Of a stretch of DNA of 64,000 nucleotides, positions 58,532-64,000 are shown in pieces. Both the position numbers and the translations under genes were made by a program. The stretch comes from Olsenella sp. SW781 (GTDB lineage: Bacteria > Actinomycetota > Coriobacteriia > Coriobacteriales > Atopobiaceae), in contig NZ_SJOU01000001.1 in the NCBI RefSeq assembly GCF_012027725.1, positions 186,001-250,000 of the forward strand, given 5' to 3'. The notes under the pieces are model-generated. The model made no database searches and was not told the origin of the DNA. It saw nothing but the letters and a program-made list of their open reading frames with translations. How positions within the stretch are numbered: the first letter of the stretch is position 1; the number at the start of each line of letters is the position of its first letter.

Positions 58532-59821
58532 GTGGCGGGCATGAGGGGCCTCGGCGAGGCGAGCTTCGGCCTCGTGGGGCGCTCGCTCGGGCACAGCTGG
58601 TCGCCGCAGATCCACGCGCGGCTGGGCTCCGCCCCCTACGCGCTCGTGGAGGTCGAGCCGGACGGGCTCGCCCCCCTCGTGCGCGACGGCGCGTGGCGCG
58701 GCCTCAACGTGACCATCCCCTACAAGCGCGAGGCGGCGGCCCTCGCGGACGTGCGCTCCCCCGCCGTGGAGCGGATCGGCGCGGCGAACACCCTCGTGCG
58801 AGCCGAGGACGGGAGCGTCGTCGCCGAGAACACCGACGTCCTCGGCTTCTCCTGGATGCTCGCTCGCTTCTGCCGAGAGCGCCTCGGGGGCTCGCCGCGC
58901 GACCTCCTCGAGGGCGAGAAGGTCCTCGTCCTCGGGAGCGGCGGCGCGAGCCAGGCCGTCGTCGACGCGCTCGAGCACGTCGCCGGGGCGCGCGCCGTCG
59001 TGATCTCGCGCTCGGGCGCCGAGACCTACGCCACCCTCGTCGAGCGCCATGCGGACGCAGCGCTCCTCGTCAACACCACGCCCGTGGGCATGTTCCCGCG
59101 CTGCCCCGCGACGCCCGTCCCCGAGGGGGACCTCGCGCGCCTCGCGGGGCTCAGGGGCGTGCTCGACGTGGTCTACAACCCCGAGCGCACCGGGCTCTGC
59201 CTCTGCGCCGAGCGCCTCGGTCTCCCAAGCGAGTCGGGCCTCGCCATGCTCGTCGCCCAGGCGCTCTACGCGAGCGAGCTCTTCCAGGGCCGCCCGATCG
59301 ACGACGCCGTCGTCCCCCGGATCGAGCGCGAGATTCGCTCCCAGACCCAGAACGTGGTGCTCGTCGGCATGCCCGGCGCCGGCAAGACGAGCTGCGGCAG
59401 GGCCCTCGCCCGCGCGCTCGGCAGGCCGCTCGTCGACATAGACGAGGTCATCGCCACCGAGCAGGGCCGCAGCGCCGCCCAGATCATCCGCGAGGACGGC
59501 GAGGGGGCCTTCCGCGCGGTCGAGTCCGAGGTCACCGGCCGCTACGGCGCCCGCTCCGGCCTCGTCATCGCCTGCGGCGGGGGCGTCGTCACGCGCCCGG
59601 AGAACTACGCCCCGCTGCACCAGAACGGCACGATCGTCCTTCTCGACCGCCCGGTCGACCAGCTCGGCACCGAGGGCCGCCCGGTCTCGCAGTCGCGCGG
59701 CGTCGAGGCGCTCGCGGCCGAGCGCATGCCGCTCTACCGCGCCTGGGCGGACCTCGTCGTGACGTGCACGGGGACGCCCCAGGGCGACGCCGCGCTCGTC
59801 CGGTCCCGCCTCGGCCTGTAG
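58532..59821 (+). CDS. aroE/aroK: Fused shikimate dehydrogenase - shikimate kinase
   Basis: Two consecutive shikimate steps in one 429-residue chain. Residues 8-265 are AroE: SLGHSWSPQIH, NVTIPYKREA with catalytic Lys65, ENTDVLG with Asp102, and NADP loop GSGGAS (135-140). Residues 274-429 are AroK: Walker A GMPGAGKTS (279-287), DIDEVI (302-307), the FRAVESE shikimate-binding Arg328, ACGGGVV (347-353) and ERMPLYRAWAD. The linker is only about ten residues. The GTG start follows the pheA stop directly. Both domains look complete, so both activities are expected. Confidence 0.94.
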   Translation: MAGMRGLGEASFGLVGRSLGHSWSPQIHARLGSAPYALVEVEPDGLAPLVRDGAWRGLNVTIPYKREAAALADVRSPAVERIGAANTLVRAEDGSVVAENTDVLGFSWMLARFCRERLGGSPRDLLEGEKVLVLGSGGASQAVVDALEHVAGARAVVISRSGAETYATLVERHADAALLVNTTPVGMFPRCPATPVPEGDLARLAGLRGVLDVVYNPERTGLCLCAERLGLPSESGLAMLVAQALYASELFQGRPIDDAVVPRIEREIRSQTQNVVLVGMPGAGKTSCGRALARALGRPLVDIDEVIATEQGRSAAQIIREDGEGAFRAVESEVTGRYGARSGLVIACGGGVVTRPENYAPLHQNGTIVLLDRPVDQLGTEGRPVSQSRGVEALAAERMPLYRAWADLVVTCTGTPQGDAALVRSRLGL

Positions 59822-60016: not shown

Positions 60017-60970
60017 GTGGACAGGCACCAGATCGCAGAGGAGGTCCTCGCGGCCATCGGCGGGGGCAAGAACGTCATGGCCAACGACATCTGCATGACC
60101 CGCCTCAGGCTCGTGACCGAGGACCCCTCGCTCGTCGACACCGACCAGCTCTCCGCCGCGCGCGGCGTGCTCGGCTTCGTGAGGAGCGGGGACAACGGCA
60201 TCGAGGTCGTCTTCGGGCCCGGCAAGGCCGAGGCCGTCCACGACGAGATCGCACGCATGACCGGCGTCGACACGAGCGACGTCGAGCAGGGCCCCTCCTT
60301 CCTCCCCCAGCAGAGCTCAATCAGGGTCCACATCACCCCCGCCCGCCTTCGCCCCGCCCCGGTGGCGCCCGCCGCGCCCGCGGCGGACGACGAGCGCTCC
60401 CCCGTGGACGAGCTCGTCAGCCTGCTGAGCGAGATCGAGCCCTCTGACGCCGACCTCGACGCGGAGGACGATGACGACGCCCTCGAGGCGACCGAGGACG
60501 ACGAGGGGCGCGGCGAGCCCGAGCGCAGGAAGCCGCGGGTCCTCGTGATCAACGGCCCCAACATCAACATGCTCGGCATCCGCGAGCCGGACATCTACGG
60601 GCACGACACCTATCAGGCCCTTCTCGGCATCTGCCAGGCGAGCGCCCGCGACGCCGGCTTTGCGGACTGCACCTGCTTCCAGTCCAACCACGAGGGCGAC
60701 CTCATCGACGCCATCCAGGACGCCTACGGAAGCTACGACGGCATCGTCATCAACCCAGGCGCCTACACGCACACCTCCATCGCCATCCTCGACGCCGCGA
60801 AGGCGGTGGGCCTGCCCATGGTCGAGGTGCACATCTCCAAGCTCGACGAGCGCGAGGAGTTCCGCCAGGTCTCCTACATCCGCGCCGCCTGCTTCGAGAC
60901 GATCACCGGCCTCGGCCTGGACGGCTACCGCAAGGCGATGTTCGACCTTGCGGGGCACCTCGGGCTCTAG
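60017..60970 (+). CDS. aroQ: PTS EIIB(Glc)-like domain fused to type II 3-dehydroquinase
   Basis: A 317-residue protein in three parts. Residues 3-82 match a glucose-family PTS EIIB domain: IAEEVLAAIGGGKNV, DICMTRLRL with Cys26 in the CxTRLR phosphocysteine motif, and NGIEVVFGPGKAE. Residues 90-172 are a Pro/Ala then Asp/Glu-rich linker. Residues 173-317 are a full type II dehydroquinase: LVINGPNINMLGIREPDIYG (Asn182, Arg189, Tyr194), INPGAYTHTS (Asn246, His252), VHISKLDEREEFR (His272, Arg279, Arg283). The usual SN after VHI is SK here. It dehydrates 3-dehydroquinate; the EIIB part may be a sensor or phosphate relay, which is inference. GTG start with AAGGA upstream. Confidence 0.9.
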   Translation: MDRHQIAEEVLAAIGGGKNVMANDICMTRLRLVTEDPSLVDTDQLSAARGVLGFVRSGDNGIEVVFGPGKAEAVHDEIARMTGVDTSDVEQGPSFLPQQSSIRVHITPARLRPAPVAPAAPAADDERSPVDELVSLLSEIEPSDADLDAEDDDDALEATEDDEGRGEPERRKPRVLVINGPNINMLGIREPDIYGHDTYQALLGICQASARDAGFADCTCFQSNHEGDLIDAIQDAYGSYDGIVINPGAYTHTSIAILDAAKAVGLPMVEVHISKLDEREEFRQVSYIRAACFETITGLGLDGYRKAMFDLAGHLGL

Positions 60971-61103
60971 CGCGACGTTGCCTCCGGGCCCACGAGCCCG
61001 GGGTCCACAGGCGGTTGGGCGATCGCATCCCCCGGGACGACAGACGCTCCTCTCGACATCTGCCAGGATCTAGGCGAGAGGAACCCCGTCGAAGGAGGCC
61101 GCC

Positions 61104-61508
61104 ATGAAGCCCCGTCCCCCTGCCAAGCTCGTGCTCCCCGTCGTGTACCTCGCCGTCTGGGGAGGCTCCGTCGCCGGCATCTGGATGGCCGACGACGCGG
61201 GCCTCATGGGCGCCATCATCCTGTGGCTCTACCTCCTCATGCCCGCCGTGACCCTGGGGACGTCGGTCGCCGCCGCGCTGCTCGACGCCTACGGGAGGGC
61301 CACGTGGCTCTGGGCGCCCGCCTGCGGCGTCGGGCTCATGCTCGTGCCCTCCCTCACGACGTCGCTCGCCAACACGCTCGCCACGGGCAACGTCCACGCG
61401 CCCGACCTCGGCGTCTTTGCCGTCGGGACGGCCATCTCGCTCGTGGGACTCCTGGCCGGGCGAGCTGCGGGGGCCCTCCGACGGCGGCGAGGGGGCGGTC
61501 GGGCATGA
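61104..61508 (+). CDS. Small membrane protein, paralogue 1
   Basis: A 134-residue protein with four predicted membrane segments (about 9-27, 34-58, 68-85, 100-118) and a basic RRRRGGG end. The segment LWLYLLMPAVTLGTSVAAALL recurs in the following gene. GGAGG precedes the ATG. No family recognised. It is 133 bases downstream of aroQ, with a weak GC hairpin (60984-61001) between them. Confidence 0.65.
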   Translation: MKPRPPAKLVLPVVYLAVWGGSVAGIWMADDAGLMGAIILWLYLLMPAVTLGTSVAAALLDAYGRATWLWAPACGVGLMLVPSLTTSLANTLATGNVHAPDLGVFAVGTAISLVGLLAGRAAGALRRRRGGGRA

Positions 61509-61870
61509 GGCCGCGTTCGGGGGCTTCCCTGTCGCTTGCCTACCTCGGCGCGTGGGCGGTCGCGGCCGTCGTGCTCCTCGCCGCCCGTGAGGGCGCGTTC
61601 GGCCCGCCCCGGCTGGCATGGCCGGCCCTGCTCGCGCTCTACCTCCTCATGCCCGCGGCGGCGGTCGGGGTCTCCTACGCGGCGGGGCGCGGGGGCGCGT
61701 TCGGGCGATGCGCGTGGGCGCCGATCCTGGCGATAGGCGTGCTCCAGCAGGCGCTCCACTGCTTCACGCCCCACTTCTACCTGAGCGCCATCGAGCTCTG
61801 CCTGAGCCTCGGGGTGTCGCTCATCGCCTACCTCGTGGGATACGTGGTCAGGCGCGTGCGGGAATCCTGA
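61505..61870 (+). CDS. Small membrane protein, paralogue 2
   Basis: A 121-residue protein with four hydrophobic segments, overlapping the previous stop as ATGA. LALYLLMPAAAVGVSYAAG aligns with the same region of its neighbour, so the two look like a tandem duplication and may form a heteromer. The 3' end overlaps the convergent LuxR-type gene by 23 bases. Function unknown. Confidence 0.65.
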   Translation: MRPRSGASLSLAYLGAWAVAAVVLLAAREGAFGPPRLAWPALLALYLLMPAAAVGVSYAAGRGGAFGRCAWAPILAIGVLQQALHCFTPHFYLSAIELCLSLGVSLIAYLVGYVVRRVRES

Positions 61871-63398
61871 GCGCCTCCCTGAGCTCTGCCGCGCTGTGCA
61901 CCCCAAGGGCCCGGTAGACGCGGCTCCGGTACGACTTGACCGTGCCGCGCGCGAGGTGCAGGCGCTCGCACACCTCGGGCTCGCCCATGCCGCCGGCGAG
62001 GCAGAGCGCCACCTCCACCTGCGTCTCACTGAGCCCGCGCTCGCTCAGGAGCTCCCGCGCGAGCGCGTCATGGCGCGGGGCGTCGCCGCGCTCGGGCCCG
62101 AAGGCGCGACCGAAGGCAAGCGCGGTCAGGGCGGCGACGAGGAGCCACGCCCCGTCGAGCGGGCCGGGCTCGGGGAGGACGACCCTCGCCACCGCGTCCT
62201 GAGAAAGTGCGATCAGAGCGAGACCCATGAGACCCGAGGCCTCGGGCGCACGGCAGGCGAGCTCCTGCGACCCCGCCCTGAGGACGCGGCGCGCCCGCGA
62301 GGCGGGGGCGTCCCCGGGCTCGCGGCGCGCGATGTCCGCGCCCAGAAGCGCGAGCGCCGCGACGACGAGCAGCGCTCCCGCGAGGCGACGTGGCCACGTC
62401 GAGACGACGAGCGCGGGGACGAGGGGCGCGACCAGCGCCGTGACGAGCCCCTTGTCCCAGGAGGGCGAAGTGCCGAGGCGCTCGCCGAGCGCATGGGCGC
62501 CGCCGGTGTCCGCGCCCAGGAGGACGAAGCACGAGAGCGAGACCGAGACGAGCAGCGCGCCGGCAACGACGCAGGCGCTGGAAAGCGACGAGGGCGCCAG
62601 GAGGGTGACCAGCGAGGCGCAGGGCGGCGTGGCCGCGGCCAGCGCCTCCGCAAGCCGCCGCGCGCGGCTCTCGCCAGCTCGGTCGTCCTTCTCGCCCCGC
62701 GCCCCTCCGGCCTCTTTCGCGAGGGCCTCGAGCTCGTCCTTCGAGCCGACGCCCAGCTTCTCGTAGCCCCTCGAGCGCAGGGTGCCGACGGTCGACTCCG
62801 AGACGCCGAGCGCGCGGGCGATCTGGGGGCGCGTCTCGCCGGCAAGGGTCCTCTCCAGCACCTCCGCCTCACGCGGGCTGAGGGGGCGGGCGGCGAGGGA
62901 GGCGAGGGGCGCGGAGGCGTCAGCGGGCTTACCGCCGCGGGACGAAAGCGCCCTGACCGCGAGCACCGCCACGACCGCGCACGTCGCGAGCGAGAGCGAC
63001 GCGAGCGCGACGGCGGGCGAGGGGGCCGGGAGGAGGGCGCAGGCGAGGACGGCGACGCCAGAGACCGAGAAGAGCTCCCGCTCGGGAACGCCCGCCCCCA
63101 CGGCCAGGCATATCAGGCCGATGAGCGAGACCGTCGAGAGGGCGACCGCGAGGGCAGAGGGGAGCTGCAGTCCCAGCGCCCGAGCGGCGGCGCAGAGCGC
63201 GAGGGCTGACGTGGCAACCCCGCCGGCCGCCACCATCGCGCGCCGGCAGCGCTCGGAGGAGACGGGGTCCGCCGCGCCGAGCAGCCTCCCGACGAGGACG
63301 AGGGCGGAGGCGAGGGGAACGGAAAGGGGGAGCGCGCACGCGGAGGTCAGAAGGCAGGCGATCCAGGCGAGCGCGAGCGGTCCCCGGCGACGACCCAT
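61848..63398 (-). CDS. Membrane protein with two LuxR-type helix-turn-helix domains
   Basis: A 516-residue protein with alternating membrane and DNA-binding parts. About five hydrophobic segments (8-150) precede a first LuxR HTH (172-228: LSPREAEVLERTLAGETRPQ, VSESTVGTLRSRGYEKLGV); about five or six more segments (262-435) precede a second HTH at the C-terminus (455-512: LSETQVEVALCLAGG, LARGTVKSYRSRVYRALGV). One C-terminal LuxR HTH behind a membrane domain is common in Coriobacteriia; two in one chain is unusual and suggests fusion or duplication of such a regulator. The start at 63398 (MGRRRGPLAL) was chosen; earlier codons overlap the upstream gene. Target and signal unknown. Confidence 0.82.
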   Translation of the reverse strand: MGRRRGPLALAWIACLLTSACALPLSVPLASALVLVGRLLGAADPVSSERCRRAMVAAGGVATSALALCAAARALGLQLPSALAVALSTVSLIGLICLAVGAGVPERELFSVSGVAVLACALLPAPSPAVALASLSLATCAVVAVLAVRALSSRGGKPADASAPLASLAARPLSPREAEVLERTLAGETRPQIARALGVSESTVGTLRSRGYEKLGVGSKDELEALAKEAGGARGEKDDRAGESRARRLAEALAAATPPCASLVTLLAPSSLSSACVVAGALLVSVSLSCFVLLGADTGGAHALGERLGTSPSWDKGLVTALVAPLVPALVVSTWPRRLAGALLVVAALALLGADIARREPGDAPASRARRVLRAGSQELACRAPEASGLMGLALIALSQDAVARVVLPEPGPLDGAWLLVAALTALAFGRAFGPERGDAPRHDALARELLSERGLSETQVEVALCLAGGMGEPEVCERLHLARGTVKSYRSRVYRALGVHSAAELREALRIPARA

Positions 63399-63423: not shown

Positions 63424-64000
63424 CTACCGGTCGCGGCAGCTCCAGACGGCGCCCTCCGTGGCGATGAAGTCAACGGGAACGTCATGGCCGTCCGTCGGGA
63501 GCGGGTTGGAGGAGAGCATCGTCGTGCGCGCGAGGCCGATCTTGTCGCCGGGATAGAACGCGAGGAAGCGGTCGTAGTAGCCGCCGCCGTAGCCCACGCG
63601 GTGTCCGGCCCCGTCGAAGACGAGGCCCGGGACGAGGCATACCGAGCCGACCATATCGGGCGTGGTCACGACCGGCGCGTCCGCGGCGGGCTCGAGGATG
63701 CGCATCGTGCGCGGGACGAGCTCGTCGAGCGAGCGGATCTCGTGGAAGGCCATGTCGTGGGCCTCGAGGTCGACCCTCGGGACGGCGACGCGCCGCCCCT
63801 CCGCGAGCAGCGACTCGATGAGGGGGCGCGTCCCCACCTCCGCCTCGCGCGACACGTACGTCAGCACGAGGGAGGCCTCGGAGAAGAGCGGGAACGCCTC
63901 GAGGGCGCTTCGTATCGAGGCGTCGCTCTCAAGGCGGGAGCGTGCCGGGATGGTGCGACGAGCGACGAGGTAGTTGCTCCTGAGCGAGCTCTTGTCGGCG
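63424..64000 (-). CDS. 5-formyltetrahydrofolate cyclo-ligase (5' end outside window)
   Basis: Recycles 5-formyl-THF to methenyl-THF with ATP. The frame reads from the window edge through LRSNYLVARRTIPARSRL, ASLVLTYVSREAEVGTRPL, PRVDLEAHDMAFHEI, to VPGLVFDGAGHRVGYGGGYYDRFL, the ATP-binding G-x-G-G-G-Y-Y-D-R signature, and ends in PLPTDGHDVPVDFIATE. The start codon lies beyond 64000; the ATG-like codon at 63867 is internal. It reads toward the LuxR-type gene, 25 bases ahead of it. Confidence 0.93.
   Translation of the reverse strand, partial: ADKSSLRSNYLVARRTIPARSRLESDASIRSALEAFPLFSEASLVLTYVSREAEVGTRPLIESLLAEGRRVAVPRVDLEAHDMAFHEIRSLDELVPRTMRILEPAADAPVVTTPDMVGSVCLVPGLVFDGAGHRVGYGGGYYDRFLAFYPGDKIGLARTTMLSSNPLPTDGHDVPVDFIATEGAVWSCRDR

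Follow-up and report, generated by a model that had tools for sequence, protein, structure and literature searches.

A membrane protein with two LuxR-type helix-turn-helix domains and a candidate operator beside its gene in Olsenella sp. SW781

The locus and the LuxR2 protein

The window analysed here is a stretch of 64,000 nt from the genome of Olsenella sp. SW781. Positions 61848–63398 of its (−) strand encode a 516-aa membrane regulator with two helix-turn-helix (HTH) domains of the LuxR type, which we call LuxR2. Just upstream on the same strand lies the gene for 5-formyltetrahydrofolate cyclo-ligase (63424–63999, (−)), which runs off the window; it holds this position in all orthologous loci examined and is a probable operon partner of LuxR2. 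On the other side, two genes are read from the (+) strand: hyp1 (61104–61508), encoding a small hydrophobic membrane protein without a Pfam or NCBIfam family, which is our proposed target gene, and hyp2 (61505–61870), which is convergent with LuxR2 and encodes a second small membrane protein, a paralogue 28 % identical to hyp1. The conserved order at orthologous loci is folate cyclo-ligase, LuxR2, then hyp1, aroQ and aroE/K.

Some features of the neighbourhood were recorded in passing. The type II dehydroquinase of the window (60017–60970, (+); PF01220) has an N-terminal extension with a partial match to PTS EIIB (PF00367), and dehydroquinases of similar length occur in relatives. The frame at 58532–59821 (+) resembles, by eye, a shikimate dehydrogenase–shikimate kinase fusion in a single frame, within a pheA–aroE/K–aroQ cluster. 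The spacer between the divergent trpS and folate cyclo-ligase genes contains a 14-bp block (TATGGTACGGCAAA) that is identical in six species (L204–L209).

The LuxR2 frame is unbroken, running from an ATG at 63398 through 516 codons with zero internal stops; this start is favoured, though not certain, because starting at the ATG further upstream, at 63485, would create an overlap with the folate cyclo-ligase gene. Against the Pfam GerE profile (PF00196), the whole protein scores 81 bits in two stretches. HTH1 (H1 type; residues 172–228; 62715–62885, (−)) matches PF00196 positions 2–53 of 57 at residues 172–223, and HTH2 (H2 type; residues 455–512; 61863–62036, (−)) contains the second stretch, at about residues 455–507. 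Scored singly in the genome scan, the two reach 51.3 and 38.0 bits, respectively, each above the PF00196 cut-off of 23.5. Beyond these two GerE/LuxR domains, LuxR2 matches generic HTH-type families only, and no receiver domain was found among its Pfam matches.

An AlphaFold2 model built from 40 homologues (mean pLDDT 85.5, pTM 0.78) places six long helices before HTH1 (model helices 175–231) and about six more before HTH2 (model helices 458–515), with pLDDT mostly >90 in both HTHs, which show the canonical four-helix fold. The first set of helices forms an N-terminal membrane module (residues 5–154; 62937–63386, (−)) and the second a further membrane module (residues 236–433; 62100–62693, (−)); a crude hydropathy count gives 5 helices for each. 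Both HTHs match the solved LuxR-type domains of RcsB, GerE and FixJ, which are the best PDB matches by structure and sequence. A transporter fold was considered and rejected, as Foldseek against the PDB gave high probability to the LuxR-type HTHs only; the membrane part returned no confident match to a solved structure or known transporter in that search.

These data bear out the preliminary description, which had placed two separate LuxR HTHs, each behind a set of membrane segments, on one membrane protein at these coordinates, now assigned to the (−) strand, and had named a search for two PF00196 matches among its checks. It had also asked whether two adjacent genes had been merged by a missed stop or frameshift, or whether only one HTH was real. 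Each HTH scores above the cut-off alone. The fusion of two single-HTH genes as an annotation artefact is refuted by the lack of any internal stop and by the numerous orthologues and paralogues in which one frame likewise holds two HTHs, including orthologues in five other species with the same double layout, and can practically be dismissed.

A family that keeps two types of HTH in one chain

By sequence comparison, LuxR2 belongs to a family that keeps an H1-type and an H2-type HTH together in one chain, and its own H1-type HTH precedes the H2-type. All eight confident GerE domains of the window's genome reside in four double-HTH proteins, while the ninth GerE match (C36) belongs to a sigma factor. 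Across the genus, the search yielded about 45 frames with a double HTH. In genomes sampled at one per species, 66 non-redundant double proteins from Atopobiaceae and Coriobacteriaceae-like genomes carry the H1 type first and the H2 type second, with few exceptions, and nearly every H2-type protein fetched from these families also has an H1-type HTH ahead of it. Among the Eggerthellaceae-like proteins sampled, one HTH at the C-terminus is the rule; the sole exception, L156 (154–1932), is a membrane protein with two tandem HTHs, both C-terminal, and this layout is apparently independent in origin. In a phylum sample restricted to the best 10 candidates per genome, no adjacent HTH pair covering both halves was found outside the Coriobacteriales. 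In the open-access papers searched, no LuxR family with two HTHs was described, though an earlier mention elsewhere is possible.

The two HTH types appear to be old. Mean identity is 0.45 between H1 domains and 0.50 between H2 domains, but 0.28 between the H1 and H2 of the same protein. A tree of 66 pairs and 12 single HTHs gave 2 label changes for H1 and 5 for H2, compared with about 48 for shuffled labels, suggesting that H1 and H2 form largely separate clades; it rests on only 64 columns, and its deep forks are weak. The single HTHs of membrane LuxR proteins fall on the H2 side. H1 and H2 share mean identities of 0.45 and 0.44 with 34 distant homologues and so are conserved equally, whereas the two membrane parts reach just 0.21 and 0.16. 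We rejected the idea that an entire membrane-plus-HTH unit was duplicated in tandem, as hhalign detected no similarity between the two membrane halves in any group; the test had some power, relating several groups to each other with up to 99 % probability. The earlier remarks that the two HTHs differ considerably and are not a recent perfect duplication thus hold, identity within one protein being about 28 % on average, the HTHs falling into largely separate old clades and the membrane halves showing no detectable relation.

The membrane spacer between the HTHs comprises 0, about 4, about 6 or 8–12 helices as predicted by crude hydropathy. The same HTH pair hence sits on membrane parts without detectable relation to each other. 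At the compact end, two proteins of 222–224 aa from a Coriobacteriaceae-like genus (L152 and L153) have adjacent H1-like and H2-like HTHs and one helix. In the window's genome, L032 (1532–2779; G000:C35) combines adjacent LuxR HTHs with one membrane helix and two PASTA domains, which makes it a membrane-anchored regulator that might sense the cell wall.

Candidate operators and their distribution

Upstream of hyp1, we identified a block that is a candidate operator of LuxR2, a tie that is drawn from comparison of species. On the (+) strand of the window, it consists of a left arm (TCCACAGGC, 61004–61012; TTGACAGRC in three relatives), a core GCATCCC (61025–61031) and a right arm (CGACAGACG, 61038–61046). 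The CAT core is followed 38 bp on by a candidate −10 hexamer, CAGGAT (61064–61069), which reads YACGAT in relatives. Both the −10 hexamer and the left arm of the window are weak copies of the block at the hyp1 promoter of this group (group B), which reads T-K/S-ACA...GCATCCC...TGACAGAC, then YACGAT. It is kept in all six species with an intact LuxR2 orthologue. In three of these loci (L207–L209), it overlaps the end of the LuxR2 gene and leads into hyp1. In the window and two relatives (L205 and L206), block and hyp1 have been inverted as one unit; although it is non-coding there and away from LuxR2, the block is still conserved. Element and 3′ coding end partly overlap in relatives of groups B and E, but the element of the window is non-coding. 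Allowing up to three mismatches, core plus right arm has a single match in the window's genome.

Orthologues of hyp1 (>160 bits) were found in nine genomes, and the block is present at all seven loci that have LuxR2 or a LuxR2 remnant. The remaining two (G008 and G029) are close relatives and have the same gene order but no LuxR2 between hyp1 and the folate cyclo-ligase gene, and the block is gone from both (2/2), while their hyp1, 75–78 % identical, is retained. In such a layout, hyp1 stands between regulator and block, so that losing both takes more than one simple deletion. Loss in the two species may be shared from one ancestor, in which case 0/2 would count as one event. In G016, the LuxR2 gene is reduced to a 200-aa C-terminal frame containing HTH2 only. 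As the block persists beside this truncated gene, either HTH2 alone suffices or the decay of LuxR2 is recent. An unrelated long palindrome (AAAGGTGTCAGGGTCGTTTGTCATGA..) precedes hyp1 in G029 (L244, about 1395–1500), where the operator is missing.

Blocks with arms and a CAT core lie beside the genes of groups A, B and D; they were not found for all members of the family and are hence no strict criterion of it. Group A, which is nearly universal in the genus and is represented in the window's genome by L031, has a conserved block between the rplT terminator and the start of its own gene; it reads TGTCRYG...GCATANC...CGACRTGACR, is followed by TACGAT and occurs in 20 distinct versions. The group D block, GTGGCAA...KCATA...TTGCCAC, also precedes the start of its own gene. 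In groups A and D, the arms are inverted repeats around a central CATA; those of group B are direct, not inverted, repeats. The CAT core begins about 38 bp (37–39) ahead of the −10 hexamer in all three groups. Among 65 −10-like hexamers of the window, none had CAT exactly 38 bp upstream, a weak control with about one expected by chance. A wider regulon was not seen: the A, B and D1 (L192 form) elements each have one perfect match in the window's genome.

For groups C, E and F, no operator was recognised directly upstream of the gene; the elements of groups C and E sit downstream of the double-HTH genes. GACAGAC occurs near the 3′ end (between 60 bases ahead of the stop and 200 past it) in 16/80 double-HTH stretches, from groups B, C and E and several genera, some being close relatives, compared with 0/16 of the controls, which were Eggerthellaceae-like genes. 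The other 64/80 stretches, which lack it just downstream, include groups A and D, with their different blocks, but also others with no recognised block. Across 19 aligned elements, the arms are 31–34 bp apart, mostly 32, about three helical turns, and the CAT core and left ACA arm are in place in 14/19, compared with 0.7 % of background GACAG sites. Some selection affects these counts, since the alignments in which the operators were spotted by eye also supplied most of the data for testing them.

By eye, the genes after the group C and E elements encode short proteins with signal-peptide-like starts and an ABC-2-like membrane protein, and most of the products have no Pfam or NCBIfam family. 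Recurrent operons downstream of double-HTH genes (L256, L259, L265 and L269–L272) encode short secreted-looking proteins with the motif RSWFG/RSWYG, together with further small proteins that look secreted and an ABC-2-like membrane protein of 280 aa, all without a known family. A resemblance of these downstream products to lactococcin-972-type bacteriocins was considered but not supported.

LuxR2 among known regulators and its likely mode of action

Membrane-bound LuxR regulators with 10–12 transmembrane helices were described from Coriobacteriia in 2022; they carry their membrane block at the N-terminus and a single HTH at the C-terminus, and include DadR, CadR and HcdR of Eggerthella lenta (PMC9734109). 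LuxR2 resembles the DadR type in its occurrence in Coriobacteriia, its overall count of about 12 membrane helices, its C-terminal LuxR/GerE HTH, the position of its gene beside the likely target and the clustering of its H2 with the HTH of single-HTH membrane LuxR proteins. It is set apart as a variant because both stated features of the group fail: the order is six helices, HTH1, six helices, HTH2, rather than an uninterrupted N-terminal block of 10–12 helices, and there are two HTHs rather than a single C-terminal one. The likely targets also differ, being small membrane and secreted-looking proteins here and dehydroxylases in the DadR type. Between LuxR2 and the Eggerthellaceae membrane domains, the hhalign probability is <1 %, though even among themselves those domains generally share <20 % identity (PMC9734109). 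LuxR2 probably works like the 10–12-transmembrane group, whose Eggerthella members activate neighbouring genes (PMC9734109), a precedent for our reading of LuxR2.

LuxR2 shares the LuxR four-helix HTH fold, in both of its HTHs, with proteins of the NarL/FixJ/GerE type (RcsB, GerE and FixJ), which have one HTH and often a receiver; LuxR2 has two HTHs, a membrane part and no receiver. By architecture, the ToxR/CadC type likewise unites a sensor with a DNA-binding domain in a single membrane protein; those proteins, however, have a winged-helix HTH and one membrane helix, in contrast to the two LuxR HTHs and 12 helices of LuxR2.

Our preferred explanation, which we hold with somewhat better than even confidence, is that LuxR2 acts as a one-component regulator in the membrane and uses both of its HTHs to read a long operator of several parts, thereby controlling hyp1 and hyp2. 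The 6+6-helix membrane part would most likely sense a small molecule or the state of the membrane, with both HTHs presumably cytoplasmic, one in a central loop and the other C-terminal. HTH1 and HTH2 would jointly read an operator with two arms about three helical turns apart and a GCAT core between them, its parts presumably divided between the two domains. If the blocks are binding sites, the operator would closely precede the −10 hexamer of the target promoter, and LuxR2 would most likely switch on the adjacent hyp1/hyp2 rather than repress them. The earlier suggestion that two DNA-binding domains on one chain could bridge two sites gains indirect support from the candidate operator, with its arms 31–34 bp apart and central GCAT.

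The HTHs could be arranged on the DNA in more than one way. LuxR2 might form a homodimer or higher oligomer in which like HTHs from two chains come together on either half of the operator, giving four HTHs per operator; we judge this quite plausible, if somewhat short of even, and it is a variant of the preferred explanation that does not exclude the main claim. Classical LuxR HTHs dimerise, and the inverted-repeat arms around CATA in groups A and D suit a symmetric dimer. AlphaFold, moreover, shows no H1–H2 packing in relatives of the adjacent type, joining the two HTHs by a low-confidence linker (pTM 0.49); a rigid H1:H2 dimer was rejected for that type on these grounds, and the earlier idea that the chain could act as its own dimer found no support there. 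The direct arms of group B do not fit such symmetry, however, and the persistence of H1 and H2 in one chain across many architectures suggests joint action. With direct arms in group B but inverted ones in groups A and D, the site may be covered either by a single chain or by a dimer. More tentatively, the HTH pair could be an obligatory, built-in heterodimer on a tripartite operator three helical turns long, movable as a module onto unrelated membrane or extracellular sensor parts, be these 6+6, 4+4 or about 12 helices or PASTA domains.

That only one HTH, probably H2, reads the operator, leaving the other for dimerisation, contact with RNA polymerase, autoinhibition or a second target, strikes us as unlikely: H2 is the type nearest the single C-terminal HTH of the Eggerthellaceae regulators in the tree, and the H2-only remnant of G016 still lies beside an intact element, but H1 is conserved as strongly as H2 and keeps its GerE profile over all groups. 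We consider it more doubtful still that the block is a plain hyp1 promoter read by another factor, with LuxR2 regulating, for example, its own folate cyclo-ligase operon. The perfectly conserved 14-bp block in the trpS–folate cyclo-ligase spacer of six species would suit such a role. Against it, the hyp1 block vanishes with LuxR2 while hyp1 remains, and blocks of this kind also lie behind other double-HTH genes, where the next genes have no relation to hyp1.

Membrane LuxR regulators govern drug and diet chemistry in gut Coriobacteriia, and how they contact DNA is the question. The two-HTH family supplies specific candidate operators, dedicated target genes close by and naturally occurring loss mutants; with these, the way in which a pair of HTHs on a single membrane-tethered chain finds and reads DNA becomes directly testable.
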